A stretch of DNA of 46,876 nt from Thermodesulfovibrionia bacterium (GTDB lineage: Bacteria; Nitrospirota; Thermodesulfovibrionia; JACRGW01), in assembly GCA_919902995.1 (NCBI GenBank), contig CAKKSD010000043.1, positions 1-46,876 of the forward strand, read 5' to 3'. How positions within the stretch are numbered: position 1 is the first letter of the stretch; every line of letters starts with the position of its first letter. The position numbers were made by a program, and so were the translations under genes. Shown piece after piece: positions 6,289 to 44,832 of the stretch. The notes beneath the pieces were generated by a model. It was not told the origin of the DNA and searched no databases. It was given only the letters and a program-made list of their open reading frames with translations.

Positions 6289-8292
6289 ATGGAAAGGTTC
6301 AGACTCATTTCAGAATTCAAACCAAAAGGTGATCAGCCCCAGGCTATAGAAAAACTATCCGAGGGGATCCTTAGGGGATACAAACATCAGGTCCTTCTCG
6401 GTGTAACAGGTTCAGGAAAGACCTTTACTATAGCGAATGTCATAGAGAATGTCCAGAAACCAACCCTTGTCATAGCCCATAATAAGACCCTTGCGGCGCA
6501 ACTCTATAACGAATTTAAGACCTTCTTTCCAGAGAATGCTGTCGAATATTTTGTGAGCTACTATGACTACTACCAGCCAGAGGCTTATATACCCCAGACA
6601 GATACATATATCGAAAAAGATGCTTCGATAAATGATGAAATAGACAGAATGAGGCATTCTGCCACTATGTCACTCTTTGAAAGGAATGATGTAATTATAG
6701 TAGCCTCTGTTTCATGTATATACGGTCTTGGTTCTCCAGAGGCGTATCATGATATGCTCCTTTACCTTGAGGCAGGAATGGTTATGGACAGAGATGACAT
6801 TCTTAGGAAACTTGTGGAGATACAGTATGAGAGGAATGACATTGATTTCAGACGGGGTACATTCAGGGTCAGAGGCGATGTAGTCGAAATATTCCCGGCC
6901 TATTCAGATGAGAAGGCTGTAAGGATAGAACTCTTCGGGGATGAAATAGAATCTATTTTTGAGGTAGATCCCATTACTGGGGATACCATTGATAAGATAC
7001 CGAAGATTGCGGTCTACCCTACAAGCCACTATGTGACACCGAGGGGAAGGCTCGAAATAGCCATTGATGCAATAAAAGAAGAGCTTGAAGAGAGGATCGT
7101 GTTTTTCAGGAATCAGGGGAAATTCCTCGAGGGGCAGAGGATTGAGCAGAGGACGAAATACGACCTCGAGATGCTGAAGGAGTTTGGTTACTGTCACGGA
7201 ATAGAGAATTATTCGAGGCACCTTAGTAGAAGATTACCAGGAGAGCCACCCCCTACCCTTATAGATTATTTCCCCAGCGACTCACTCTTCATAGTAGACG
7301 AATCACATGCCACAATCCCCCAGCTTGAAGGGATGTATAAAGGTGATAGATCAAGGAAGCTCACACTCGTCGAGTATGGTTTCAGGCTTCCCTCTGCCCT
7401 TGATAACAGGCCGTTAAACTTCCGGGAATTTGAGGGAAATGTGTCGCAGGCGATCTATGTTTCTGCGACTCCTGGACCATACGAGGTCAAAAAATCAAAT
7501 GGTAAAATTATGGAACAGATTATAAGACCAACAGGACTTATCGATCCAAAAATAACAGTTAAACCTATAAATGGACAGGTCGATGACCTTATGGCAGAGA
7601 TAAAGAAAAGGGCAGAAAGAAACGAGCGTATACTTGTGACGACACTTACAAAGAAGATGTCTGAAGACCTTGCAGATTATTACCACGGCCTTGGTTTAAG
7701 GGTCAGATATCTCCATTCAGATATAGAGACACTCGACAGGGTCGAGATCATAAGGGACCTCAGGCTCGGGAAATTCGATACCCTTATAGGCATAAACTTG
7801 CTCAGAGAAGGGCTCGATATACCAGAGGTGTCCCTTGTGGCTATACTCGATGCGGACAAAGAAGGGTTTCTCCGATCCGAGAGATCACTCATTCAGACAT
7901 CAGGAAGGGCAGCAAGAAACATCAACGGTGAGGTTATCATGTACGCAGATTCCATAACAGGCTCTATGGGTGCAGCGATCAGAGAGACAAACAGAAGGAG
8001 GATAATACAGGAGCGATATAACAAGGAAAATGGCATAACCCCGGAGTCTATAAAGAAAGGTATCCATGAGGTTCTCCGTTCTGTTTATGAGGCTGACTAC
8101 TTTACTGTTCCTGTAGTCTCTGAACAGAAAGAAGAATACCTTTCACCCAAAGAACTCCTCACTGTTATAGAAAGATTGGAGAAAGAGATGAAAGAATCGG
8201 CAAAAAAACTCGAATTCGAAAATGCAGTGAGGTTAAGGGACAGGATAAAGGCACTCAAAGGAGAGGTGTTAACTGTTGGGATTAAGGTCTGA
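6289..8292 (+). CDS. uvrB: UvrABC system protein B
   Basis: [70 protein letters not shown]-terminal UVR motif. ATG at 6289 preferred over 6241. Confidence 0.96.
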
Positions 8293-8308
8293 TAGAAAAA
8301 AGATAAGT

Positions 8309-9952
8309 ATGGACAAGGATAGAATAAAAAACCTTCCTGATAAACCAGGTGTATATTTTCTAAAAAACTCAAAAGGTAAGGTAATATATATTGGGAAGGC
8401 TAAGTCCCTCAGGAATAGAATAAGTTCTTATTTTCAGGGGTCTGTTGAAACCGATCAGAGAAAAGAATCAATGATGAGGAATGTGAATGATTTCGAATAC
8501 TTTATAACCGCAACAGAACTTGAGGCGCTAATCCTCGAGTCAAACCTCATTAAAAAAGAAAAACCGCGCTTTAATGTAATCCTCAGAGATGACAAGAACT
8601 ATCCAAGCCTCAGACTCGATACAGGTGAGAAATGGCCAAGGCTCCATGTCGTAAGAAAAATGAAGAGGGACGGCGCATGTTACTTCGGTCCCTATGTACC
8701 TACAGGCGCAATGTGGGAGACCCTTTCTTTTATAAGAAAGACTTTCCCCCTTGCGACATGTAAAAGAGACCTCTCTAAGCAAAGCAGGCCCTGCCTGCTT
8801 TATGAGATGGGAAGGTGCATTGCCCCTTGTGCAGGATTCGTGAAGAAAGAAGAATACCATGATGTTGTTAATGAGGTGAAACTTTTCTTGCGGGGAAAGA
8901 ACAGGAATCTTATTAAAGGTCTTCAGAAAAGAATGGAAAGGGCATCAAAAGATATGGCTTATGAAGAGGCTACAATATTGAGAGACAGACTAAAGGCGAT
9001 AGAGAAAGTTATTCAGAAACAGAGGATTGTCTCCCCTGCCCTTCCTGACATTGATGTGGTAGGGGTTGCCAGGAACGGAGAAACAGTAAATATAGAAATT
9101 CTATTCTTTAGGAACGGGATGATTCTCGGGAAAAAAGATTTCGTAATGAAGACTATTATGGTCGATGTGAACGAATTACTTCATACTTTTCTGGAGCAGT
9201 TCTACGATAAGGAAATACTTCCCCCTTCAGAAGTAATTATCCCAGCAGAAATACCTTCTAAGGATGTCATGGAGTCTTGGCTTACAGAGAAGAGAGGGAA
9301 GACTGTCCATATCCTTATTCCGAAGAAGGGTAAAAGGTACGGTCTGCTCAGAATGGCAACAGAAAATGCTATGGCATCTATTGGAGAATACCTTCTTTCT
9401 TTACAAAGAAAAGACGTAATTTTACAGGATATTAAGAAAAGGCTGAACCTGAAGAGGTTACCTGTTAGGATAGAGGCATTCGATATATCCAATATACACG
9501 GATCAGAGGCAGTTGGTTCTATGGTCACATTTGAGGATAATATCCCGAAGAAAGAATGGTACAGACATTTCAGGATAATGACTGTTGAAGGTATTGATGA
9601 CTTCGCAATGATTGCAGAAATAGTCAGAAGGAGATACAGGAGACTTCTTGAGGAGAATGCCACTATGCCAGATCTTATAATTGTGGATGGAGGGAAGGGA
9701 CATCTAAACGCAGCAATCAAAGCCCTTAGCGAATTAAAGATAGCGAGGAATATTGATATAATAGGAATAGCAAAAGAGAAAGAAGGTTTTTCTGATAGGG
9801 TCTATATCCCGGGAAAGTCTAACCCTGTCATTCTACGACCTGATTCTGCATCGACCCATCTCCTTCAAAGGGTCAGGGATGAATCACACAGGTTTGCAAT
9901 CACCTATCACAGGAAACTCAGAAAGAAGTCTATGGGTTTACAGAGAGCATAA
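8309..9952 (+). CDS. uvrC: UvrABC system protein C, lacking the C-terminal HhH domain
   Basis: GIY-YIG domain (PDKPGVYFLKNSKGKVIYIGKAKSLRNRISSYF), UVR motif and RNase H-like nuclease (EAFDISNIHGSEAVGSMV..IVDGGKGHLNAA). Stops at HRFAITYHRKLRKKSMGLQRA. Confidence 0.95.
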   Translation: MDKDRIKNLPDKPGVYFLKNSKGKVIYIGKAKSLRNRISSYFQGSVETDQRKESMMRNVNDFEYFITATELEALILESNLIKKEKPRFNVILRDDKNYPSLRLDTGEKWPRLHVVRKMKRDGACYFGPYVPTGAMWETLSFIRKTFPLATCKRDLSKQSRPCLLYEMGRCIAPCAGFVKKEEYHDVVNEVKLFLRGKNRNLIKGLQKRMERASKDMAYEEATILRDRLKAIEKVIQKQRIVSPALPDIDVVGVARNGETVNIEILFFRNGMILGKKDFVMKTIMVDVNELLHTFLEQFYDKEILPPSEVIIPAEIPSKDVMESWLTEKRGKTVHILIPKKGKRYGLLRMATENAMASIGEYLLSLQRKDVILQDIKKRLNLKRLPVRIEAFDISNIHGSEAVGSMVTFEDNIPKKEWYRHFRIMTVEGIDDFAMIAEIVRRRYRRLLEENATMPDLIIVDGGKGHLNAAIKALSELKIARNIDIIGIAKEKEGFSDRVYIPGKSNPVILRPDSASTHLLQRVRDESHRFAITYHRKLRKKSMGLQRA

Positions 9953-11171: not shown

Positions 11172-11825
11172 TTAAGTACTGCTATTCCTTGACCATGGTG
11201 ATTTATCTCTAATTTCCACTACCCTGATGAGATAGCCAAAGGGATAATCAGGTTGGTAGAGATGGAATTTTTCAAACTCGAATAGATTTCTTGAAGAAAG
11301 AAGGAATCTGTAATATGGACTGTTTTTTTGGAGAATATCTACTTTCCCGTTTATCTGAAAGCTTATATATTGTAGGCCCTCCGGGGTGTGTGCCATCCCA
11401 ACATAAAGCAAACTTGCATATGGGTTTTCTTTTAGATTTTCAAATGCCCTTCCCTCAAATATCTCAAGACCACCAAGCATGACCGGTTCGAAATTCTCTA
11501 TATCCCCATATAGCCTGGACATTGCCTCTACTCTCTTGTGCAGGCTTTCATTCCACGGTATCGTATGAGCCTCTGCAATAACGCCTTCAAAGATATCTGT
11601 GTAATCATTAAGTATCTCTGCCTTCGGTATCAGTCCTATTCCCTTCACAGTCATATTCACGGGGAATAGGTCATCTTTACCCCATGTAGCCATCACCGGT
11701 AAATGTGCAGAAAAATAATGGAGGGGCTTACCATCCTTCAGATCACTCAGAAATCTAACCCTCGAAGAAACAAGCCATTCCAGGCATTTGGCTGGAATTT
11801 TATCTAATATCAATCTTGTTTCCAT
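11172..11825 (-). CDS. Conserved-looking hypothetical protein (217 aa) downstream of radical SAM gene
   Basis: Intact ORF overlapping the radical SAM gene end by 26 nt; no family recognised. Confidence 0.55.
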   Translation of the reverse strand: METRLILDKIPAKCLEWLVSSRVRFLSDLKDGKPLHYFSAHLPVMATWGKDDLFPVNMTVKGIGLIPKAEILNDYTDIFEGVIAEAHTIPWNESLHKRVEAMSRLYGDIENFEPVMLGGLEIFEGRAFENLKENPYASLLYVGMAHTPEGLQYISFQINGKVDILQKNSPYYRFLLSSRNLFEFEKFHLYQPDYPFGYLIRVVEIRDKSPWSRNSST

Positions 11826-13122
11826 AGGCTGATTTACGCCTCGCCTCCTCCATTATCTTCGGGGTAATTTCTTTATAACCATTCTCTATTGCATATCTCT
11901 CAACAGAGCCTATTACTATAGATCGTATAAAAAAGGGGACTCTTTTTAGGCGATCCTCTGCTTCTCCAGTCCATAATAGATTGCACGCTGAGCCTGCGTT
12001 AGATTTGGAAGAATCCGCATAAAAGTTTGGTGGGACTATTACATCTTTTTCCCTTGGTATATAGGCACACCATGGGTCTTCTGCCATTATATCCGTTGAT
12101 GTTGCATAGGCCCTTGCCCTGCATCCGCCGCAAAGATATTTAAATTCGCAATAACCGCACCTACCTGTAAGCTTCGGTCTCCTCATATTCTGAAAGAAGT
12201 CGGAATTATCCCATATGTCTGCAAAGCCCTTCTCCTTTACATTGCCTACACTAAAAGGAATGTATGGGCATGGTGTAACATCGCCTTCAGGCGTAATTCT
12301 ACAATAGTGAAATGCTGCAAGGCATCCGCCACCTGTATATCCTGCTGCCTTTGTAATTGGTGAATCAGGGTCTTTTTCGTATGCGAGTCTTTTAAAATGA
12401 GGGGCACACCTTGCTGTTATCATCATGCCGCTATATTTACCCTGAATATCTAATAGTAGTTTCAGCATATCTTCATATTGCTCTGCTGAAATGTCTGTTA
12501 TATCCTGTCCCCTGCCAGTACAGACCATAAAGAATAAATTAAAGACCCTTGCACCGAGCTTATGCGAAAGGGCTATGATTTCTGAAATCTCATAGTAATT
12601 GGTAGTTGTAACAGTTGTCTGTATCTGAAACTCTAAGCCGTGCCTTTTGCATGATTCAATGCCCGCCATTGCCCTATCCCATGAGCCTTCAATACCCCTG
12701 AAAGCATCATGATATTCTGGACCGATGGAGTCAATGCTTATTCCAATGCCAGAAACACCTGTTCTTACCATCTCCTTAGCTGACTTATCATCTAAGGTCG
12801 TAGCATTTGTGCCAACGACTACCATCATTCCTTTTTTTGATGCATAATCTGATAGGTCAAATATATCCTCCCTTACAAGGGGTTCACCGCCTGTGAGGAT
12901 CAGCATGGTTGCTGGATTCACCTCTGCAATCTGGTCTATCAGCCTATTGCCTTCTTCTAATGAAAGCTCGTTTGTATCTTTCTTGGTTAGTGCATCAGAA
13001 TCAAGATAGCAGTGTTTGCACCTTAGATTACACCTCTTTGTGGTGTTCCATGAGATTAGATATGGGGCAAAACTACTCATCCTTTTTATTTTTATCCGAG
13101 GCTTCTCTAAAGTATTTTTCAA
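11800..13122 (-). CDS. Radical SAM/SPASM protein (NirJ/AhbC/AhbD-like) with C-terminal PCP_red-like domain
   Basis: CX3CX2C (KRCNLRCKHCYLD); SPASM CRITPEGDVTPCPYIPFSVGNVKEKGFADIW..CGYCEFKYLCGGCRARAYA; C-terminal WTGEAEDRLKRVPFFIRSIVIGSVERYAIENGYKEITPKIMEEAR resembles PF08369. Confidence 0.82.
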   Translation of the reverse strand: MKNTLEKPRIKIKRMSSFAPYLISWNTTKRCNLRCKHCYLDSDALTKKDTNELSLEEGNRLIDQIAEVNPATMLILTGGEPLVREDIFDLSDYASKKGMMVVVGTNATTLDDKSAKEMVRTGVSGIGISIDSIGPEYHDAFRGIEGSWDRAMAGIESCKRHGLEFQIQTTVTTTNYYEISEIIALSHKLGARVFNLFFMVCTGRGQDITDISAEQYEDMLKLLLDIQGKYSGMMITARCAPHFKRLAYEKDPDSPITKAAGYTGGGCLAAFHYCRITPEGDVTPCPYIPFSVGNVKEKGFADIWDNSDFFQNMRRPKLTGRCGYCEFKYLCGGCRARAYATSTDIMAEDPWCAYIPREKDVIVPPNFYADSSKSNAGSACNLLWTGEAEDRLKRVPFFIRSIVIGSVERYAIENGYKEITPKIMEEARRKSAYGNKIDIR

Positions 13123-14731
13123 ACTTCTTGATTATCTCCTCGTTCTTTCCTTTCCTTTCTGAGAGGAACTGCTTTATTTCGTCTATGACCTCTTTTTTCC
13201 TCGGGTCATTTGTCTTATCCTTTGCCTCATCAAAGGCCATCATATTTAGCTCATCAAATCCGAGTTTCTTCATCCTCTTTGTAACCATCATCATAGACTC
13301 ATCCCGAATCTCTGAAAGGAATTTCGAGGTGATTACCTTATATCCCTTTTCCTTTGCTTTTTTTACCATCAATTTATATATTCCTGGCCTAACAAATTCA
13401 GGTGCATTCTCAACCCTCTTTAGCGCTTCTTCTTCCCATTTAATCTCATCATCTTTGGGCAGGGCTTGCCCTGCCCCTACATCTTCTGATTCCTGACTCC
13501 TGGCACCTGACTTTTTTATCCCCATCCTGTCCCTTGCAGATGCAGGGAGAAGTTTTTCTACTGCCTCATCCATAATGGCAACTGTTATCTCTTTTGCTCT
13601 TTTTTCTTTAGCGAATCCTTCTATCGCCTTGATTGCCATTCCCCTTACAAATGCAGGTATTATCTCAAGTCTTGTCTCAGCATCCTTTGTCCACGGAATA
13701 GAATCCTTTAAATCTTCCTTTTTAATCTCTTCGGAGGGAGTATAGTTCTTGCTCACTATTAAAATATTGCATGGTGCAAACCGCAGAAGATTTTCTGTAT
13801 TACTGCCGATATCAAGACCATTCGTGCTGTGTACGCCGAGTCTTCCGACAAACAACAATGATGGAGGGTTGTCTTTCACATATTGTAATATCTGTTCATA
13901 AGGTTTGCCTGATAGGAGTGTTGTGGTAATATCTAAACCGTCCATTTGGGCAATATTTTTTGCTACATCAAGGTGCCCCTGATATATCTTTGCAAGACCC
14001 TTATCTATAATCTCCTCATGGAGTTTTTCCTGCTCTTTAAATCTGAATATCTTTCCTGCCTCCTCTGAAAGCACTCCTGAAATATTTTTAAAGGCTACAG
14101 AATGAAAATTAGGGTCAAAGGATGATACAGCCTCAACAGACGTATTGAATGCCTTAGCAATAGCCACGGCTGATTTTACTGCTGCCATTGAATTCGGGCT
14201 GCCGTCAACAGCAACTATTATCTTCCTGTCAAATACCCTGTTGTTTTTGGTTATCAGTATGTCTGTCCTTACCCTGCGCACAACCCTTTCGCAGACACTG
14301 CCAATCATGCTTCCATTCACTGTACCGAGCCCCTGAATGCCCATGATTACAAGGTCGTATGGATTTGATTGCACGTCTTCTACTATTTTGGCATAGTTTT
14401 TCCCTTCAAGTGTCTTTCTTGAGTATTTAATGTGCGATGCCTTGCACCTTTGTTCAAGGACAGCTAAAAATGAATCGGATATTATCTGAAGTCCCTTTGT
14501 GATTAGACCCTTGTGTATTTCACGCTGCCCCCCAATCTCCTTTTGATCCTGATATTTTTCCGGTAAACCTGTCTCCATCTGCCTGAACCTGTTATCATGT
14601 AAACTCGCACTGTACACATGGCTTCCAGTCAATTTAGATTCAAATCTCTCAGCAAGTGTTATACCTATATCAATACAGTAATTAGAATACTCTGAGTTAT
14701 CTATGGGAATAAGTATATTTTTGTAAAACAT
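13073..14731 (-). CDS. Tandem universal stress protein (UspA x2) fused to two PCP_red-like domains
   Basis: N-terminal Usp domain (ILIPIDNSEYSNYCIDIGITLAERF..DLVIMGIQGLG) and second Usp (IIVAVDGSPNSMAAVKSAVAIAKAF..SLLFVGRLGVHSTNGLDIGSNTENLLRFAPCNILIV). These are followed by WTKDAETRLEIIPAFVRGMAIKAIEGFAKEKRAKEITVAIMDEA and KWEEEALKRVENAPEFVRPGIYKLMVKKAKEKGYKVITSKFLSEI. Confidence 0.8.
   Translation of the reverse strand: MFYKNILIPIDNSEYSNYCIDIGITLAERFESKLTGSHVYSASLHDNRFRQMETGLPEKYQDQKEIGGQREIHKGLITKGLQIISDSFLAVLEQRCKASHIKYSRKTLEGKNYAKIVEDVQSNPYDLVIMGIQGLGTVNGSMIGSVCERVVRRVRTDILITKNNRVFDRKIIVAVDGSPNSMAAVKSAVAIAKAFNTSVEAVSSFDPNFHSVAFKNISGVLSEEAGKIFRFKEQEKLHEEIIDKGLAKIYQGHLDVAKNIAQMDGLDITTTLLSGKPYEQILQYVKDNPPSLLFVGRLGVHSTNGLDIGSNTENLLRFAPCNILIVSKNYTPSEEIKKEDLKDSIPWTKDAETRLEIIPAFVRGMAIKAIEGFAKEKRAKEITVAIMDEAVEKLLPASARDRMGIKKSGARSQESEDVGAGQALPKDDEIKWEEEALKRVENAPEFVRPGIYKLMVKKAKEKGYKVITSKFLSEIRDESMMMVTKRMKKLGFDELNMMAFDEAKDKTNDPRKKEVIDEIKQFLSERKGKNEEIIKKFEKYFREASDKNKKDE
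13457..13476. repeat. Palindromic element GGGCAGGGC-TT-GCCCTGCCC inside the Usp-PCP_red coding sequence
   Basis: Perfect 9-bp inverted arms, located in the linker between the two PCP_red-like domains. Confidence 0.7.
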
Positions 14732-15685: not shown

Positions 15686-16909
15686 TCATTCTGGAATCAC
15701 CGGGAGTATAGGTTTATCAAGCGGGATAGGAGGAAGCGTCTCTCCCTTTTGATGAACCTTTGCCCCTCCTCCATGGTGGAACATGTTGATATAGGCAATC
15801 ACCTTCCATATCTCCTCATTCGAAAGATAGTTTTTCCATGCAGCCATCGGTGTATCCTTTCTCCCTTCAGAAACAACCTTAAAGAGGTCTGCATCAGAGA
15901 GCTTACCCATCCTATTAACATCCATCAGGTTAGCTGCAATTGTCATCAGTGGAATCCCATCTTTACCATGGCACACATAACACGCCACATTTGGGTTCTT
16001 TGTCCCCTCATAAATATCTTTACCCTCTCTGAGTATCTTCGGGTCAGTCCACCAACCCTCAGGCATTTTTTCTGTGGTTATTCTCAACTTACCTACATTT
16101 TCCAGATACCTTACAAGTGCCTCCATATAATTTTTCTCAATCAGGGTTTCGTAATAATCAGGCATGGTCTTTGTTTCTTTTTCATATCCCTTTGTGGTCT
16201 CCTTTCGCGGTTCCATTATAGATTCCTTTATCTTGTTTCTATTCCCCATGTCTAAAACAGCAAGGGAAGGTCCCCTTTTTTGTATCCCTCCGGGTTCTAT
16301 GTTATGACAGTTGAAACACTCATAGTCTTTGAAGACCCGAGCACCCACTGAGAGGATCATCTCTTCATCCGCTTCCTCTATAAGAAACTTTTTTGGTTTC
16401 AGCTTCTCGATCTCATAGGCAGGGTCAAATTGGGGTAATGCCCAGCCCATAAATGTGTAACCACCACCTATGATAAGGAAGAAAAGGAGTATGCTGTTTA
16501 CCGCTCTGATACCTGTTTTCCCCTTAAGGGGTTTAAGGTCAATAATAACGAGGAAAAGGATGGCGAGGATGGCATATACAATTATGGTCATCTTGAACAT
16601 TAACGGGAATTTGTAATATGTGGTATAAAGCCACATGACTCCCAGAAAGATTGTTACATAAATAAGACTCAGGATAATGTTTTTGAAAATCCTCTTCCCC
16701 TGCCAATCCTCAACGGGGAAGATATCTATCAGAACAAGGATAAGAAAGCCTCCTGCAGTAAACAGGGTGAATGCTACCTTAAAGACCACAGGTAGGGAAT
16801 AGAGGAAAGAGTTAATAACCCATATCAGGATATTTAAAAGGACTAATCCGATTATCTTAGATCTTATCTTTTTCCACACCCCTATATTATCACCCCTTCT
16901 CTTTACCAT
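15686..16909 (-). CDS. Membrane-anchored diheme cytochrome c
   Basis: About five hydrophobic N-terminal segments followed by two CXXCH motifs (CFNCH, CYVCH). Confidence 0.8.
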   Translation of the reverse strand: MVKRRGDNIGVWKKIRSKIIGLVLLNILIWVINSFLYSLPVVFKVAFTLFTAGGFLILVLIDIFPVEDWQGKRIFKNIILSLIYVTIFLGVMWLYTTYYKFPLMFKMTIIVYAILAILFLVIIDLKPLKGKTGIRAVNSILLFFLIIGGGYTFMGWALPQFDPAYEIEKLKPKKFLIEEADEEMILSVGARVFKDYECFNCHNIEPGGIQKRGPSLAVLDMGNRNKIKESIMEPRKETTKGYEKETKTMPDYYETLIEKNYMEALVRYLENVGKLRITTEKMPEGWWTDPKILREGKDIYEGTKNPNVACYVCHGKDGIPLMTIAANLMDVNRMGKLSDADLFKVVSEGRKDTPMAAWKNYLSNEEIWKVIAYINMFHHGGGAKVHQKGETLPPIPLDKPILPVIPE

Positions 16910-18401
16910 ATTTTAAGCCTAACCATACTATAAATATGAAGATAATAAAAAATCCGAAGGTTATCAATGTGGTTAAGGATGAGGTATAGCTAAGGGCAGG
17001 TGTGTATGCCTCAAGGGTAGTATCCTTTAAAAGGAGATAGACATGGTAATCCTTTCTGACCAGTGATCTTACAGCCCCCATGAGGTTCATAAGCCAAATA
17101 TCACTAAAGCCGAGGAATATAAGTATATACTGAGCCCTGAAGTCTATATTCCCCCATTCTATTCTTCCCTTCTTTATTGCTATTCTATAAATAATGTAAT
17201 TTAGTAATGTCACCACGAGTAGGAGGACAGCAGCAGTATTCTTTGCCTTCATAAGGGCTAAAAACCCGAGGTGAGAAGGTAGTTCTGTAATCTTTAGAAA
17301 TTTTTCCTTTGTCATCCCCGCATACATCCATTCCTCCGGGACCATGGTGGCAAAGTAGTGTCTCGGGATAAACCAGATACAGGCAGCAAAGAATACAACT
17401 ATAAATCCAAACCTTACAATGGGGGCATACCCCATAGCCCCTTCTATCCTCTTCATACTGAGCCACATATAGTAATTGCTTGCCAGAAAGAGAAGCCCTA
17501 CGACAATTGCCTGTGCCTCAAAATACATAGATAATCTGTCAGACATCATGTATGTCCCCAATTCAGCGGCATATCGATAGAATTCCATTGCATATATGTA
17601 TCCCATGATGGGGAGTAAAAGCATGGCGCCAACACCGATAGTGTTTCCAATATAACCCATCCAATCATAGTAAGCCCTGTCTTTCTCATCTTTTGACCAC
17701 ACATATAAAAAGGCACCCATCATACCTACCATGTATCCCCCATAGGTTATATTCCCTACCAATCTGTGGAGATTTAGGGGTATCCATGTATAATTATAGA
17801 CATTCTCCCATACCGTAGGATTGATAAGGTCTCTTGGCGGTGTATTCATATAGGAGGCTATGGCATCCATATTAAAAAGGGTAAGGATTCCAACTATATT
17901 AAGAAGAATGCCTATAGATAAATGGATACCTTTTTTCTCCTTGAGGCGCTCCCAGCTAAAGTAATAGACATACATAAGGATTGTCTCAATAATAACCAAA
18001 CCGGGATAAAATAGAATCCAGAGCGGGGCAAATTGGTTTATGATGTGATATGAGAAATCAGGATACAACCCAAAAAGTAAAAATGCAAAGGTTCCTCCTG
18101 AAAGGGCGGTAATACTATATGCTATTGCCATTACCCTCGCTATATCCTTTGCCAGCCTCTCGTATCTGTAATCCCCCTTTCTCATATAGAGATACTCTGC
18201 AATTACAACGAACAATGGAACACCTAATATAAAAGAGGCAAAAAGGATGTGAAACTGGGCTACTATCCATATAGCTGTCCTGTTGCCAAAGATGGGGAAA
18301 TTTAGTGATTCAAGGTCGGAATATCCCTGTGCAGGGACAGAGGAAAATAATAGGAAGAATGTCAATAGTAGTCCTAAAATAATTGTTTTTTTATTTCTCA
18401 T
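16890..18401 (-). CDS. CydA-like (cytochrome bd-like) quinol oxidase subunit I homolog
   Basis: Multi-TM protein with FHILFASFILGVPLFVVIAEYLYMRKGD and additional conserved His in TMs; resembles bd-like oxidases described in Nitrospira. No CydB gene adjacent. Confidence 0.72.
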   Translation of the reverse strand: MRNKKTIILGLLLTFFLLFSSVPAQGYSDLESLNFPIFGNRTAIWIVAQFHILFASFILGVPLFVVIAEYLYMRKGDYRYERLAKDIARVMAIAYSITALSGGTFAFLLFGLYPDFSYHIINQFAPLWILFYPGLVIIETILMYVYYFSWERLKEKKGIHLSIGILLNIVGILTLFNMDAIASYMNTPPRDLINPTVWENVYNYTWIPLNLHRLVGNITYGGYMVGMMGAFLYVWSKDEKDRAYYDWMGYIGNTIGVGAMLLLPIMGYIYAMEFYRYAAELGTYMMSDRLSMYFEAQAIVVGLLFLASNYYMWLSMKRIEGAMGYAPIVRFGFIVVFFAACIWFIPRHYFATMVPEEWMYAGMTKEKFLKITELPSHLGFLALMKAKNTAAVLLLVVTLLNYIIYRIAIKKGRIEWGNIDFRAQYILIFLGFSDIWLMNLMGAVRSLVRKDYHVYLLLKDTTLEAYTPALSYTSSLTTLITFGFFIIFIFIVWLGLKYGKEKG

Positions 18402-18623: not shown

Positions 18624-19616
18624 TTAAATTTTAAACATCTCGCTATGCTTATAGGCTATCAGGATATCCATCAACTCTGATTTTCCTTCATTAGACTTCT
18701 TATCCATCTCTGCTTTTAAGACTTTCAGGGCACCTTCAACCCCATCCCCAAAGAGCTTCTTCAGGAACTCTATGGGGATCCTCGTTTCGTCTGTTACCTC
18801 TCCCCTTTTATTGAACTTTGGTGGACCTAAGGGTGGTACATAATAGACATTTGGTATTGTCCCAAAATCGGGCTTTAAAGGGAGTGCAACCCCCCATTTT
18901 TTAACCAGTTTGTAAACATGCCCCTCCTTATCGTCCAGATAACCCACATGCCTTATCCTTCCTACACACTGTTTCGCACATGCCGGTGGAAGACCCTTTT
19001 CTATTCTGGGAAAACAGAATATGCACTTCTCTGATTGCCCAGGGATCCCCTTCTCAGCCCTTGCCCTCGAAGGATTGAAATATACCTTCTTATATGGACA
19101 TGCTGAGATACAGTCCTTTACACCCTTACACCTCTTCAAGTCCACAAGGACAATTCCATCCTCCTTCCTCTTATGGATTGCCTTATTAGGGCAGGCGGAA
19201 AGGCATGCTGGTTTTGTGCAGTGATTACATATCCTGGGGAGGTAGAAGAAGTAGGAGTTTGGATACTCCCCATCACCTTCATCCTCATCCCAGTTGGCAC
19301 CCCAGGAGGTTTCAGCATCCTGCTTTAAGGTCTTAGCACCTCCACTCATAAGTTCTTTGTAGTTATACTCCCAGGGAATTCCATAATCCTCAGGGATACG
19401 AGGTAACTCCCCTTTCCTTAGATTCCCCTTTTCATCCCATCCTGCTTTATAGTCCATATAACCCTTCGGATAACCTTTGCCAGGCTGTGTCTCTACATTG
19501 TTCCAATACATATATTCCCTGCCGAATCTGTTGGTCCACTGTGTCTTGCAGGCAGCAGTGCATGTTTGACACCCAAGACACTTATTCAAATCCATGACCA
19601 TCGCAAGTTGTCTCAA
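18624..19616 (-). CDS. Type II DMSO-reductase-family iron-sulfur beta subunit (Nxr/Ebd/Ser/Clr/Ddh-like)
   Basis: Four Cys clusters: CLGCQTCTAAC, CNHCTKPACLSAC, CKGVKDCISAC, CIFCFPRIEKGLPPACAKQC; CVGRIRHVGYLDD..VALPLKPDFGTIPNVYYVPPL resembles Ebd/Ser/Clr beta subunits. Confidence 0.87.
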   Translation of the reverse strand: MRQLAMVMDLNKCLGCQTCTAACKTQWTNRFGREYMYWNNVETQPGKGYPKGYMDYKAGWDEKGNLRKGELPRIPEDYGIPWEYNYKELMSGGAKTLKQDAETSWGANWDEDEGDGEYPNSYFFYLPRICNHCTKPACLSACPNKAIHKRKEDGIVLVDLKRCKGVKDCISACPYKKVYFNPSRARAEKGIPGQSEKCIFCFPRIEKGLPPACAKQCVGRIRHVGYLDDKEGHVYKLVKKWGVALPLKPDFGTIPNVYYVPPLGPPKFNKRGEVTDETRIPIEFLKKLFGDGVEGALKVLKAEMDKKSNEGKSELMDILIAYKHSEMFKI

Positions 19617-19626
19617 CTATCCTCCT

Positions 19627-19702
19627 ATTGACTATTGACGATTGAAGATTTAAATGAATTAAATTCCTTTATTATTCAATATTCAATAGTCAATCTTCAA
19701 TT
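19627..19702. repeat. Imperfect inverted repeat (ATTGACTATTGA ... TCAATAGTCAAT; GATTGAAGATT ... AATCTTCAAT)
   Basis: Arms 19627-19638 and 19683-19694 are perfect reverse complements. The right arm encodes the last codons of the alpha subunit gene. Confidence 0.6.
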
Positions 19703-22440
19703 TTTTCAATATCTACCGAGGTCTCGCTGGTAATCTGATTCCCATCCCAGAAGGGGTTAAAGCTCATATGCCCATAATTGCCCACAATCTCAAGAGGGGT
19801 TATAATTCCAGGGACGACATTGTTATACCCCTTCCCCTCCTTAAACTGCAGGTTCTCCCATGCATGTTCTATCCATATAACATCCGGGGGTGTACCGGGA
19901 TGGAGTTTTGTCAATACATACATCTCCCCTACATCATTGAATACCCTTACCCTATCTCCATCTTTTATCCCCCTCTCAGCCGCAATCTTCGGGTTTATAT
20001 AAATTGCTGGTTTCCCCCTCTGAAGTCTCAAATGGTATTTGTTCATTCTCCAAGTGGTGTGGATACCATAGCGAGTATGAGGGTCATAATAGGCAAAGGG
20101 ATATTTCTTAGGTCTCACAGGCTCTCTTGCAGTGGGCGTGGCAAAACCGAGTTTTAAATAAAAATCCTGATCCACATAAAACTGCTGCCTACCGGAGGTT
20201 GTAAAATATGGCTGTTTTAGTTGAACCTGAAACTCAAATGGATAGAAAGGCCTATCTGGATATAAAGGGCTTGTTTGACCTGCGGCCCTGCCAGGGATTA
20301 TGAAGCCAGTTTTTTTCGCTTCTTCAACTGTAACTCCCTGTAATGCAGGTATCCGGGCCATTACCCATTCAAGCACACCTTTAAAGTCTGTTATCTCTTT
20401 ATCACCTACTGTTATAAAGTCCTCATAAAGAGCACCTATATTCCTCTTTGTCATTAATTTTGGGTCATCAATCTCTCCGATACCCCTCTTTTTGGCAACC
20501 TCCTGGATTTTTTTGCATAGGAGCATACAGATCTCCCACTCTGATTTAACACTGCCAGGAAGTTTAAGCCCTGGAGGGGGTATCATCACATTTGCAAATC
20601 TCCCATACCCAGGGTCCATCCTGACCTCATAGCTTTCATAGTTTGTTACTGAGGGGAGAATTATATCTGCGAGGGATGCTGAGGAATCCATCCTGTAATT
20701 CACATTTACATATAAGTTAACAGAATTTAGAATAGCCTTTTCTGTCTGTTTCTGGGCAGAGTTGCGTGAGAAACGGTTATCGTGAAAGAGCATCATAAGT
20801 TTTGGTTTGCCAAAATAAGGAAACCCCTCTTTCTTAATTGCATTATCTATCTGCTTTAGTAAACCTTTCTTATCAATTCCTGCCTTTCTTTCTAAGTCTT
20901 CATCGCTATAATGTGAAAGGAAGCTCCTCCACATATCACCGTCCATCCACTCCCCGAGAAATCCAGATCCAAAGCGGGCTGGCTTTGGTGAGGATAGGGC
21001 TCCTAATTCACCAAGACCCCACTCGTTATCTATATCCAGTCCACCCCTTCTGCCAGCATGTCCTGTTAGTGCCAGCATTAATGATGCACCCCAGCATGTA
21101 AGGACACCCCATAAGTATTTGTGTATGCGATAGCCCTGCATTATTATCGCCCTCTTTGCTTTTGAGAATCTCCTTGTCTCTTCATAAACTATGCTGGGAT
21201 GTATACCCGTAAATTTCTGGGTCTCCTCAGGAGAAAATTCTAAAGTCTCTTTTTTTATTTTCTCAAAGACGGTGGTAACTTCTATCTCCTCTCCGTCTTT
21301 ATCTTTAATCCTGAAGACCCCCTCAAGGGCAGGTCTTATATCCCCAAGCTCAAGTGTGGGTTCATTGCTACCAATACTCCCCCTGACCTTCACAGGGCTC
21401 TGCCTTTTTTCATCATAGAAGTAGAAGATATTATCCTCTCCACCCTTCATTAAATCTGATTCTCTGAGGAGTTTTCCATCCTTAAATTTAACAAGAAAGG
21501 GAAGGTTCGTCTGCTCTCGAACAAACTCCTCATCGTAAAGTTTCTCTTTAATAATTACATGAACCATTGACATTGTTAGAAAACTGTCCGTGCCAGGTTT
21601 TATTGGTATCCACAGACTGCTCTGTCTTGCAGTTGGATTGTAATCAGGTGATATGGAGACAACCCTCGCCCCTCTATACTTTCCCTCCCATATGTAATGG
21701 GCATCTGGCATCCTTGTGACAGTGGGGTTTATACCCCATGTGAGTAGGTAGTCTGCCTCATACCATGCCTCTGAGCTGCAGCCCACTGTAGAGATACCAT
21801 AGGCAATAGTTGCACCTGGAAACATATCTCCAACAGCACTTGCCACATTAAATCGGACAGCACCAAGGAGGGAACCGAGACGCAGGGCAGCAGCCCTCCG
21901 TACAGGCGAGAGTATGCCTGTGCCGGCATAGACCATCATTTTGTCAAATTCCCCTTTCCCTGCTACACGCACTACCTTTTCAGCTATCTCTTGTAGTGCC
22001 TCATCCCAGCTTATCCTTTTCCATTTCCCCTCTCCTCTGTTCCCAACCCGCTTCATTGGAAATAAAATTCGGTCTTTTTCATAAAGGGACTGAGAATGAA
22101 GGGCACCCTTATTACAACCTCTTGGATTGGCATCAGGGATATCAGGGGCTATCTGGGGATAACCTGCTACCTGTTCCTCTCTTACAATACGCCCATCCTT
22201 TTCAAAGGTCTGCCACGCACAGTTCCCCTTGCAATTGACACAGTGAGGCGAATATCCTGTGCTGGTTCCTCTCGTTATATCAAATTCCTTTCTATAGAGA
22301 TTTAGGGTGAGATTGCTTACTCTCCTTAGCTCTTCAGGCACATACCCGTCTTCCCCTGAGCTGGTAAGGCAGCTCGGGAGAATGGTAGTAGCCCCTGCCA
22401 CTACACCTATCTTAATAAACTCCCTTCGATTTATGTTCAT
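19690..22440 (-). CDS. Type II DMSO-reductase-family molybdopterin oxidoreductase catalytic (alpha) subunit, Tat-exported
   Basis: Tat motif NRREFIK; [4Fe-4S] motif HCVNCKGNCAW..NPRGCNKGA; molybdopterin-binding domains (GYNNVVPGIITPLEIVGNYGHMSFNPFWDGNQI). Confidence 0.88.
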   Translation of the reverse strand: MNINRREFIKIGVVAGATTILPSCLTSSGEDGYVPEELRRVSNLTLNLYRKEFDITRGTSTGYSPHCVNCKGNCAWQTFEKDGRIVREEQVAGYPQIAPDIPDANPRGCNKGALHSQSLYEKDRILFPMKRVGNRGEGKWKRISWDEALQEIAEKVVRVAGKGEFDKMMVYAGTGILSPVRRAAALRLGSLLGAVRFNVASAVGDMFPGATIAYGISTVGCSSEAWYEADYLLTWGINPTVTRMPDAHYIWEGKYRGARVVSISPDYNPTARQSSLWIPIKPGTDSFLTMSMVHVIIKEKLYDEEFVREQTNLPFLVKFKDGKLLRESDLMKGGEDNIFYFYDEKRQSPVKVRGSIGSNEPTLELGDIRPALEGVFRIKDKDGEEIEVTTVFEKIKKETLEFSPEETQKFTGIHPSIVYEETRRFSKAKRAIIMQGYRIHKYLWGVLTCWGASLMLALTGHAGRRGGLDIDNEWGLGELGALSSPKPARFGSGFLGEWMDGDMWRSFLSHYSDEDLERKAGIDKKGLLKQIDNAIKKEGFPYFGKPKLMMLFHDNRFSRNSAQKQTEKAILNSVNLYVNVNYRMDSSASLADIILPSVTNYESYEVRMDPGYGRFANVMIPPPGLKLPGSVKSEWEICMLLCKKIQEVAKKRGIGEIDDPKLMTKRNIGALYEDFITVGDKEITDFKGVLEWVMARIPALQGVTVEEAKKTGFIIPGRAAGQTSPLYPDRPFYPFEFQVQLKQPYFTTSGRQQFYVDQDFYLKLGFATPTAREPVRPKKYPFAYYDPHTRYGIHTTWRMNKYHLRLQRGKPAIYINPKIAAERGIKDGDRVRVFNDVGEMYVLTKLHPGTPPDVIWIEHAWENLQFKEGKGYNNVVPGIITPLEIVGNYGHMSFNPFWDGNQITSETSVDIEKIED

Positions 22441-22492: not shown

Positions 22493-23590
22493 TTAATCGT
22501 TGGCAAGGTCAAGTTTCATCTTCTCTTTGACCTCTCCTACCAAGCGATACTTTCCAAAGAACATAATATGTGCTGTTACCATTGCAGCCATGAAAAATGT
22601 GCCACCCATTACAAAACTGCCTATTGACAATGTTGGCCATCCTGACATAAAGGCACCTGTTGTACACCCTCCACCAACAAGGGCACCAAATCCCATCATA
22701 ATTCCACCGACAAAGACTGTAAAACCCCGTATTGCCATATTGGAGCTGAATGCCTCCTGAAAAAGAGGTGTAACTCTTTCTTGATAGAGTGTTTTTGCAA
22801 GATAGGAGCTTAAGAATGCTCCAGGGAAAATGCCGAGTGTCAGCATGGCACGCCATAGGGTGCTTTCATTCAATGAAGGGACGCTTGTAAAAGAATAACC
22901 AAAAAAAGATGATAGATATGCCCCCAGTGCAAGAAATCCCCCGGAAAAGGAGAGATACTCCCCTAATGCAGTGCTGACAAATATCAACACCCCAGCGATC
23001 GCACCTGTAAAAATCCATCCCCATTCTCTTTGCAAGATGGGTTTTTCTTCCTTTATCTTATCAAACTTTTTAGCAGGGTCTATCATTGAAAGGAAGAAAC
23101 TCATACCAATGAAAAGAACTCCAAAGATAATGGCAAGATAACCGTAAGAGATATTAAAAACCATCGCCAATGTTATAACACTTGGCTCACCTCCAATGGC
23201 GCTGACTGTTGAAAAAAGAATCTCATAAATAAAAACACCTATGAAGATACCAAGCACACCCACTCCTACCAGCAATTTCCCTGACGACAACCTTGCCGCA
23301 CATGTACCGGGTCAGAGTGCAGCAACAGCCATACCAATTCCAAAGAGGATACCGCCAATAATGTGACCCGTACCAAAATATCCATTAATGCGGGGTACAA
23401 TACCAAGGTTCATCAAATCAGAAATGCCATACAATAGGGCTGCCACTGCAAGCCCTGTAAACATAAAGTTCATTGCTTTTAAGTCCCTCAGCAGGAGGGC
23501 ACCTATTATTCTTGAATATCTTACAACCCCCCCTCTGTGGAGTATAAAACCAAAAATTGCACCGATAAGAAGTCCACTTAATGCCTTCAT
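22493..23590 (-). CDS. YeeE/YedE family (thiosulfate/sulfur-species) transporter, predicted selenoprotein with in-frame TGA at 23312-23314
   Basis: The two track ORFs (23312..23590 and 22493..23290) are in the same frame. The junction reads GIGMAVAAL-[TGA]-PGTCAARLSSGKLLVGVGVLGIF, and TGA occupies the Cys of the CPGT motif. A SECIS-like hairpin follows and tRNA-Sec is present in the window. Confidence 0.85.
23279..23311 (-). promoter_or_regulatory. Candidate bacterial SECIS element immediately downstream of the UGA codon
   Basis: RNA: UGA-CCCGGUACAUGUGCGGCA-AGGU-UGUCGUCAGGG. Six consecutive pairs GCGGCA/UGUCGU (including G-U) close an AGGU loop 18 nt after UGA; basal CCC/GGG can also pair. 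Confidence 0.72.
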
Positions 23591-23685
23591 CTTTATCCCT
23601 CCCTTTTTGAGTTTGTTGTAAACAGTAGGCAGAAATAACTGCTTACTCTTACTACCCTATGGGTCGGTTCTTCGACTTACTGCCC

Positions 23686-24624
23686 TTACATATCTGCAGG
23701 GATGTTTTTTACATCTCCCATAGGCAGTTCAGGTTTTGCTGACCAATCTTCCATGGAACCCCCATAAATCCTGACCTTTTCAAACCCTAACATCTTCAGA
23801 ACCATAAACCCATAGGTCGATCTCCCTATGCCCCAGTTACAGTAAGTAACAATCTCTTTATTTTTGGTAACACCGTATTTATTAAGAACCTTCTGTATCT
23901 CCTCTGCTGATTTAACAGTTGAGTCCCCTGCAAATTCAGTCCATTCTATATTAATAGCACCAGGGATAGAACCACCCCTTTTATTTTCAGCAGGATTGGT
24001 GCCTATATATTCGGCAAAACTACGCATATCGAGGATGGTTATCGCTTTCCTATTTGTAAGTATCCATTCCAATGTAGCTACCATCTCAGGTTTTGGTGCC
24101 GCTTTGAAGTTAGCCTTTTTAACAACTGTTGGTTTATCGGTTACAGAAAGTCCCTCAGAAATCCACTTTTCATAACCACCTCTTAGAACCTGCACATTGT
24201 TGTGTCCATAATATCTCAGTAGCACCAAGATTATACTGGCATCAGGGAAGGTGATGCTGTCATATACAATGACCCTGCTATTTACACCGATACCAGCTTT
24301 ACCGAACACCTTTGCAGCCTTTTCAGGTGGAATGACAAAACCATTAATTCTTTTATACTCCATATCTTCAGGTGTCCGAAAAAGGTTTTTAGGTATATTT
24401 ACAGCATTAGGTATATGCGCCTTCTGGTATTTCTCTGATGATCGGGCATCTACTATTACCATATCAGGCTTATAAAGGAGTGCTGATAGCTCTTTTGTTT
24501 CTATCAAATATCCTGGTAATAGTTTAACCGCAGAACTTTTTCCTGTTTGCCCTTCGGTTTTTTGGTTTCCGGTGCTAAAAACAAGAAGGATACAGATTAG
24601 GCTAATCTTTAAAGTTTTGGACAT
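23686..24624 (-). CDS. Exported tandem-rhodanese sulfurtransferase
   Basis: Signal peptide; two rhodanese domains (VDARSSEKYQKAHIPNAVNIP; LDMRSFAEYIGTNP..GGSIPGAINIEW). Active loop CNWGIGRST in domain 2 only. Confidence 0.85.
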   Translation of the reverse strand: MSKTLKISLICILLVFSTGNQKTEGQTGKSSAVKLLPGYLIETKELSALLYKPDMVIVDARSSEKYQKAHIPNAVNIPKNLFRTPEDMEYKRINGFVIPPEKAAKVFGKAGIGVNSRVIVYDSITFPDASIILVLLRYYGHNNVQVLRGGYEKWISEGLSVTDKPTVVKKANFKAAPKPEMVATLEWILTNRKAITILDMRSFAEYIGTNPAENKRGGSIPGAINIEWTEFAGDSTVKSAEEIQKVLNKYGVTKNKEIVTYCNWGIGRSTYGFMVLKMLGFEKVRIYGGSMEDWSAKPELPMGDVKNIPADM

Positions 24625-24706: not shown

Positions 24707-25084
24707 TTATAGACATGCCTTTGACATTTTTCCCCCTCCTTCGAGAGGTATGATGTCATTTACCAATATCTTATTCCCCTTCAAGACTCCCTTTATTGCT
24801 ACCTGTTTTCCAAAACCCGAGTTGAATTTCCATTTTGGAATCTCATTGGCTTCCAGATGGTATACGGTTCTCTTTGAAGTGAAAAGCACAAGTGAAGATG
24901 GGTCTTTATACCATTCCAGATAACAGGTGGGAGACTTTAAACATTTTTCTGTAGTAAGTGTACCCTTTGCTACAATAATCTTAGTTGTTTCTTCTCCCAT
25001 TACTACCGGGGAATGTAATAGCACAACCCCTAATAAAGAAAGAAAAAATAAAACCCCTATTTTATATCCGTTCATGACGTTCAC
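24707..25084 (-). CDS. Small exported hypothetical protein
   Basis: N-terminal signal peptide (YKIGVLFFLSLLGVVLLHSPVVMGEE), three Cys; between the rhodanese and the ArsR regulator. Confidence 0.55.
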   Translation of the reverse strand: MNVMNGYKIGVLFFLSLLGVVLLHSPVVMGEETTKIIVAKGTLTTEKCLKSPTCYLEWYKDPSSLVLFTSKRTVYHLEANEIPKWKFNSGFGKQVAIKGVLKGNKILVNDIIPLEGGGKMSKACL

Positions 25085-25087
25085 CTC

Positions 25088-25429
25088 CTATGCGATCTTT
25101 ATTCTTTTTAACATCTTCTCTGTTCTTGAAAGCTGTTCAAGAAGAACCTCACGCATAATGTCAAATGCCTTCATCACCTTTGGATTGGTAATGCTGTAAT
25201 AGATATTCACGCCATCTCTCCTCGTCTCAAGTATTCCCTTCTGCCTCATCAATGATAGATGCTGGGAAAGATTTGTCTGAGGTATATCCATAAGGCGTGA
25301 TAGTTCGTTAACAGATTTTTCTCCATTACGAAGGAGATCTATAATCTCAAGCCTCTTTGGATTGCTGAATATATTACAAACACTGGCATGCATCTCGTAA
25401 ATCAACTTATCCATATTTCTCTCCTTCAA
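25088..25429 (-). CDS. ArsR-family winged-helix transcriptional regulator
   Basis: FSNPKRLEIIDLLRNGEKSVNELSRLMDIPQTNLSQHLSLMRQKGILETRRDGVNIYYSI. The start is probably MDKLIYEM rather than MKERNM. Confidence 0.9.
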   Translation of the reverse strand: MKERNMDKLIYEMHASVCNIFSNPKRLEIIDLLRNGEKSVNELSRLMDIPQTNLSQHLSLMRQKGILETRRDGVNIYYSITNPKVMKAFDIMREVLLEQLSRTEKMLKRIKIA

Positions 25430-44734: not shown

Positions 44735-44832
44735 TGGCGGGAGCGGGTGGGAATCGAACCCACCAATCCCGATTTTATCGGGATACACTGGATTTGAAGT
44801 CCAGGAGGGACACCAGAACCCCATCCACTCCC
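44735..44832 (-). tRNA. selC: tRNA-Sec (selenocysteine, anticodon TCA)
   Basis: GGGAGTGGATGGGG...CTGGACTTCAAATCCAG...TATCCCGATAAAATCGGGATTGG...TGGGTTCGATTCCCACCCGCTCCCGCCA. It has an 8-bp acceptor stem, anticodon TCA at 44795-44797, a long variable arm and encoded CCA. Confidence 0.96.

Follow-up and report, generated by a model that had tools for sequence, protein, structure and literature searches.

Passage of the cargo through transporters of the YeeE/YedE family is debated, with hydrogen-bonded thiosulfate on one side and covalently bound sulfur on the other. Where the function of a selenoprotein is known, it is mostly that of a redox enzyme, and a selenocysteine (Sec) placed mid-way in a membrane translocation path is unusual. 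In YeeE of Spirochaeta thermophila (StYeeE), three cysteines have been proposed to form a relay across the membrane (PMC11073785), and two of them, Cys91 and Cys293, are reported to be indispensable (PMC11582611); the related SoxT1B loses its activity when any one of the three is changed from Cys to Ser (PMC11582611). A predicted selenoprotein of the YeeE/YedE thiosulfate transporter family (PF04143) has already been catalogued with the motif GUxSG (WP_012471001.1; PMC13188914, PMC9312934), and in a 2026 catalogue the family is entered with one Sec.

The window considered here, that is, the whole stretch of 46,876 nucleotides of DNA that was analysed, from a Thermodesulfovibrionia bacterium, carries an open reading frame that starts with ATG, ends in TAA and contains a single in-frame TGA (Table 1); a search of the whole source assembly (2.01 Mb, 69 contigs, 94% complete) gives the same single TGA in this YeeE gene. 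The original prediction had described two frames in the same phase split by nothing but this TGA, followed by a downstream piece with no convincing start, and the description stands: the read-through peptide is GIGMAVAAL-U-PGTCAARLSSGKLLVGVG, the ribosome-binding site upstream of the ATG is strong, and the sole possible start of the downstream piece is a TTG at 23290, which lies inside a predicted hairpin and has no ribosome-binding site. With the TGA read through, the protein matches PF04143 over residues 31-337 (positions 13-309 of the 310 of the profile, 93.9 bits, cut-off 27), and it scores 57.2 bits with the TsuA equivalog model NF052577, below the curated cut-off of 400. The frame is confirmed, on the comparison of sequences, as that of one predicted YeeE/YedE protein read through the TGA (hereafter Sec-YeeE), and the residue at codon 93 is almost certainly Sec.

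Table 1. Position of the features discussed in the text, in coordinates of the window.
Feature	Position	Strand	Remarks
c-type cytochrome, two cytochrome c domains	15686..16909	-	
Membrane protein, N-terminal half matches cytochrome bd subunit I	16890..18401	-	after operon
Type II DMSO-reductase-family iron-sulfur beta subunit	18624..19616	-	TIGR03478 above cut-off
Probable type II DMSO-reductase-family molybdoenzyme alpha subunit, twin-arginine-like signal MNINRREFIK	19690..22440	-	
Predicted Sec-containing YeeE/YedE gene (Sulf_transp, PF04143)	22493..23590	-	365 aa; Sec93, Cys309, Val23, Cys97
SECIS-like hairpin, loop AGGU at 23290-23293, 18 nt past the TGA	23282..23302	-	GG loop in ten TGA genes
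In-frame TGA predicted to be read as Sec, codon 93, StYeeE Cys91 column	23312..23314	-	alignment, orthologs
Ribosome-binding site GGGAGGG ahead of ATG 23590	23597..23603	-	sequence
Two-domain rhodanese, N-terminal signal-like stretch, active-site Cys in second domain (CNWGIGR)	23686..24624	-	
125-aa exported protein, no family assigned (has EKCLKSPTC)	24707..25084	-	conserved in operon
ArsR/SmtB-type regulator, first operon gene	25088..25429	-	HTH_metalloreg above cut-off; BigR and TsoR models below cut-off
selC, tRNA-Sec, anticodon TCA	44735..44832	-	69.2 bits, gathering 47; same contig as Sec-YeeE

Alignment with the solved StYeeE (6leo) puts the TGA on Cys91, Cys309 on Cys293 and Val23 at the site of Cys22. 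Both relay positions Cys91 and Cys293 are kept as Cys or Sec, while the third cysteine is missing, since its site holds Val or Thr in all orthologs. An extra cysteine, Cys97, one turn past Sec93, is invariant in all eleven sequences (ten TGA genes and one Cys ortholog), and the motif at the Sec site is L-U-P-G-T-C, not GUxSG. AlphaFold with five sequences reached a pLDDT of 40 and gave no usable model, so the position of Sec rests on sequence alignment.

Orthologs were sought in 60 relatives, in 233 genomes of the class and 396 of the phylum and also, in a single scan, in 85,462 genomes of named species. Nine of them, from other metagenome-assembled genomes (MAGs) and 42-65% identical to Sec-YeeE, have TGA at exactly the same codon and read U-P-G-T-C throughout; three are 65% identical (WFVK01000305, JAADFS010000318 and JALSHG010000009; loci L067, L068 and L070), three 60-61% (L146-L148) and three 42-43% (L149-L151). 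The sole ortholog with Cys is L066 (MHDO01000013, labelled Nitrospinae), which is 78% identical and has TGC at the Sec codon; neither selA nor selD was found above cut-off in its genome, which like the others is a MAG, where a gene may be absent from the assembly or a contig wrongly binned. As L066 groups in the tree with the Sec-YeeE of the window (90/96), inside the Sec proteins, the history is most simply read as a change from Sec to Cys in which the machinery was also lost. At another locus (L055/L069 in G216, DRDE01000027) the YeeE gene gives way to unrelated sequence at about residue 105, close to the contig end, and it is uninformative on the Sec codon because the gene ends before it. 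No relatives of Sec-YeeE were found on plasmids.

Selection on the part of the gene that follows the TGA was estimated from two pairs: past codon 93, the comparison with L066 gives dN 0.139 and dS 1.05 (dN/dS about 0.13), and that of L067 with L070 past the TGA gives dN 0.037 and dS 0.35 (dN/dS about 0.11). This purifying selection resembles that upstream, and such low ratios indicate that the part after the TGA is translated and constrained.

The pattern extends to the wider family. A class-wide PF04143 search returned many full-length proteins with one or two TGAs, and 34 of this kind, together with half-size ones from earlier hits and the present subfamily, were aligned with StYeeE. All 61 TGAs within the aligned region, in 46 TGA-bearing sequences, fell on the columns of Cys22, Cys91 or Cys293: on Cys293 alone in 21 sequences (two of them half-size), on Cys22 and Cys293 in 15, and on Cys91 alone in 10, these last being the ten members of the present Sec-YeeE subfamily. 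Taken with the TGA at the same codon in nine other MAGs, this excludes chance.

The proteins with TGA at both Cys22 and Cys293 are full-length predicted double selenoproteins from 15 genomes of the class (RGRYU ... GGUTVGH; loci L050/L144 in G007, L114-L116, L119, L121, L122, L124, L125, L127, L128, L130, L138, L143 and L145); that of L050 adjoins a DsrE-like gene and a small conserved gene, an arrangement that resembles the YTD cluster of sulfur disproportionators. In nineteen full-length proteins the only TGA is the one at the Cys293 site, and its context is mostly GGUN-GHG (L112, L113, L117, L118, L120, L123, L126, L129, L131-L137 and L139-L142), and in the half-size YeeE of L030, L035 and L038 the TGA lies in GGUTSGHG or DGUPSGHG, which fits the catalogued GUxSG. 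Standard gene calling will split or truncate such transporters in many genomes of the phylum, the double-Sec ones included, whose DsrE-like neighbours recall the YTD cluster, which has been put forward as an indicator of sulfur disproportionation.

Given that Sec-containing YeeE/YedE proteins are already catalogued, the protein of the window does not represent a new selenoprotein family. We infer that the catalogued GUxSG form sits at the Cys293 site, a placement to be read with the fact that the context of Cys91 in StYeeE, GGCASG, would also fit GCxSG; with this placement, Sec at Cys91 is new. So far as the literature shows, the subfamily with its operon and the use of all three relay sites are new as well. 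The literature yielded no experimental report on any of these, and the main text of the GOS, ISME J and deep-Sep papers does not mention the catalogued Sec-containing YeeE/YedE.

A GG-loop hairpin is possible in 10/10 TGA genes, its loop lying 18-19 nt past the TGA and reading AGGU, AGGUCA, AGGUG or GGU. That of the window's gene is weak locally (-6.0 kcal/mol), and when 40 nt from the UGA are folded the energy is -8.5 kcal/mol, which satisfies the bSECIS rule (loop of 3-9 nt, G in the first two loop positions, 16-37 nt from the UGA, MFE <= -7.5; PMC13188914). About 25% of random codon positions here also satisfy this loose rule, and the hairpin is therefore weighed mainly by its conservation. 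In samples of synonymous codons drawn with local codon usage, an equally stable GG-loop hairpin arises in 1.0% for the window's gene, 0.3% for L067-L070, 2-12% for L146-L148 and 1% for L149-L151. The Cys ortholog L066 has no hairpin, the GG being removed by a synonymous AGG-to-AGA change and the stem being lost. In the fdhF element of E. coli, the sequence of which was confirmed from RefSeq genomes, the loop motif of the ten TGA genes recurs at a nearly equal distance from the TGA. As to the SECIS element for which the original prediction suggested a search, a conserved SECIS-like hairpin was found; Rfam gave no SECIS match.

A code in which TGA means Trp was rejected because TGA is an ordinary stop in the source genome, where the molybdoenzyme alpha gene and both cytochrome genes end in it. 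The same genome has selA and selB side by side on one contig (C41) and selD on another (C31), all above curated cut-offs, and its selD too contains a TGA, at the position where SelD proteins canonically carry Sec (AAGUAGKLG). Among the relatives, selA and selD were both found in G008, G223 and G216, where SelD is likewise Sec-containing, and selA was not found in G041 (88% complete). The tRNA-Sec fell below cut-off in G008, G223 and G041 (150 candidates scored per genome); since Rfam tRNA-Sec scores do not separate Sec-using from other relatives, selA and selD were used instead. With these results the central claims of the original prediction are upheld: the UGA falls on the conserved Cys of the CPGT motif, aligned with Cys91 of StYeeE; the same column holds TGA in nine orthologs and Cys in L066, StYeeE and the wider family; SelA, SelB, a Sec-containing SelD and tRNA-Sec are all present in the MAG; and one Sec-containing YeeE/YedE transporter is predicted from the nearly full PF04143 profile, the TGA on a relay cysteine, the machinery and the conserved UGA.

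Sec-YeeE is the fourth gene of an operon that is conserved through four lineages and runs from the ArsR-type regulator through the 125-aa exported protein (p125), the exported rhodanese, which is probably periplasmic, and Sec-YeeE to the alpha and beta subunits of the molybdoenzyme. The same gene set is present in L068, L070 and L156 and, to the contig limits, in L066, L157 and L158. At the L160 and L161 loci, selD is followed by Sec-YeeE, then p125 (detected in L160), the rhodanese, alpha and beta. The beta subunit scores 513.5 with TIGR03478 (cut-off 480.7) and the alpha subunit 924.7 with TIGR03479, just under 984.75; the closest solved relative of the latter is the perchlorate reductase PcrA (4ydd), followed by ethylbenzene dehydrogenase. 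The electron carriers downstream vary, being the bd-like membrane protein (not common to the relatives examined) and a cytochrome c in the window, Rieske, cytochrome b and cytochrome c proteins in L068, and a heme-b gamma-type subunit in L160.

Some further observations concern these loci and their surroundings. The selD gene lies directly upstream of Sec-YeeE in L159 (3829-5247), L160 (2523-4763) and L161 (9885-12232), and in L159 and L160 it has its own in-frame TGA (GAGUACKISP). In L156 (genome G260), DsrE-like genes and an SQR-like gene stand between the regulator and the p125 gene; the SQR-like gene (7083-8706), with the DsrE-like genes upstream of it, has its best match, below cut-off, in the type III selenoprotein SQR model, and is interrupted by TAA/TAG, not TGA, at about residue 332. 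The molybdoenzyme alpha gene of L158 (6830-9509) lies in two overlapping frames, probably through a frameshift or an assembly error. Elsewhere in the window, a universal-stress-protein gene (13073-14731) and a radical SAM/SPASM gene (11800-13122) each have a PCP_red domain (Proto-chlorophyllide reductase 57 kD subunit family) at the end, and a response regulator with an ANTAR domain lies next to them.

Taken together, these data very probably describe a full-length inner-membrane YeeE/YedE transporter in which the central relay residue, Cys91 in StYeeE, is Sec, and which would operate as follows. Sec would be inserted at the UGA by SelA, SelB, SelC and SelD, helped by the hairpin just downstream, while the periplasmic rhodanese and the molybdoenzyme would form or process a sulfur compound on the outer side and hand over or release sulfane sulfur or thiosulfate. 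Cys309, on the periplasmic side, would pass the sulfur species to the central Sec93, from where it would reach the cytoplasm, with Cys97 perhaps replacing the missing third cysteine, and the imported sulfur would be used by cytoplasmic sulfur carriers and sensed by the ArsR-type regulator. At neutral pH a selenolate is ionised, and its exchange of sulfur is quicker than that of a thiolate, which would suit a transfer step. Import of sulfane sulfur or thiosulfate is the putative function, the cargo and its direction being taken from homology and neighbours. It is possible, though rather doubtful, that YeeE/YedE proteins in general work by covalent transfer of sulfur along the chain of Cys and Sec, with persulfide or selenenyl-sulfide intermediates and with chalcogen chemistry as the rate-limiting factor, and not by hydrogen-bonded passage of intact thiosulfate; the use of Sec at each relay site in different lineages is what would be expected if that chemistry limits the rate. 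Natural Sec/Cys pairs at all three relay positions in one family make the question of passage directly testable.

The TGA could be a true stop between two half-proteins like PmpB and PmpA, the second of which would be made by re-initiation at the TTG. Half-size YeeE pairs do exist, both in the family and in the source genome (G000, contig C42), and Cys91 belongs to the N-terminal half and Cys293 to the C-terminal half (PMC11582611), but the break falls on the codon of the relay cysteine in ten genomes and not between the halves, with the same frame and zero spacing everywhere. The C-terminal piece, moreover, is far longer than a PmpA half, starts within the first half and lacks a ribosome site, and L066 is a fused ortholog with Cys, all of which leaves this arrangement very improbable. 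The chance that the gene is a pseudogene, or that the Cys codon was misread in sequencing, is practically negligible: TGC or TGT needs a one-base change to become TGA and the assembly behind the window is a draft, yet the TGA is found in ten independent assemblies down to 42% identity, and purifying selection downstream of it is similar to that upstream.

As far as the cargo is concerned, the selD neighbour in one clade makes selenium the main functional rival, with Sec-YeeE as a transporter of selenite, selenide or selenosulfate that feeds SelD and takes no part in sulfur energy metabolism. To the three loci with selD directly upstream may be added that YedE is a proposed selenium transporter (PMC5322559), that selenium transport in Methanococcus maripaludis involves a YedE-like protein (according to PMC11582611) and that tRNA-Sec is encoded on the same contig as the Sec-YeeE of the window. 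The constant neighbours, however, are the rhodanese and the molybdoenzyme, joined in G260 by DsrE-like proteins and an SQR-like gene; selD is elsewhere in the source genome; and the Cys ortholog L066 occupies the same operon in a genome where no selD was found. A selenium transporter is on this evidence unlikely, and sulfur is probably the main cargo. It is also improbable that the protein is a sulfur-signal unit for an ArsR-type repressor and not a bulk transporter; such a regulator heads the operon and SoxT1B offers a precedent (PMC11582611), but the operon has only one transporter of this kind and also carries enzymes, and no ArsR gene occurs in the stretch read at the loci of the clade with selD. 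The preferred reading is still that of a relay transporter for sulfur with Sec at its centre.

Compared with YeeE/TsuA of S. thermophila (6leo, 8k1r) and E. coli, the protein of the window belongs to the same Pfam family, is likewise full length and has Sec93 and Cys309 for Cys91 and Cys293; it differs in having Sec at position 91, Val23 in place of the third cysteine and a CPGT-type motif with Cys97, and no TusA/YeeD gene was seen in its operon. The catalogued GUxSG form is of the same family, is likewise predicted and has one Sec, but the proteins that correspond to it here are half-size (GGUTSGHG or DGUPSGHG) and carry Sec at the Cys293 site, whereas the present protein has its Sec at Cys91 (UPGTC) and spans the full length. 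In PmpB the only conserved cysteine stands at the Cys91 site (PMC11582611), and in this it is like the first half of Sec-YeeE; PmpB and PmpA differ in that they are two half-size proteins from two genes, with Cys and not Sec. The YedE of the YTD cluster of sulfur disproportionators (PMC12998232) is also a YeeE/YedE protein of Nitrospirota found beside sulfur-transfer genes, but the YTD-like form in this class is often a predicted double-Sec protein (Cys22 and Cys293) of another subfamily, with DsrE-like neighbours and no molybdoenzyme seen. Finally, SoxT1A and SoxT1B of Hyphomicrobium denitrificans are YeeE-like transporters whose genes accompany those for ArsR-type sulfane-sulfur repressors and for sulfur oxidation (PMC11582611); they differ from Sec-YeeE in having Cys at all three positions, and their neighbours are Sox and sHdr genes instead of a rhodanese and a molybdoenzyme.
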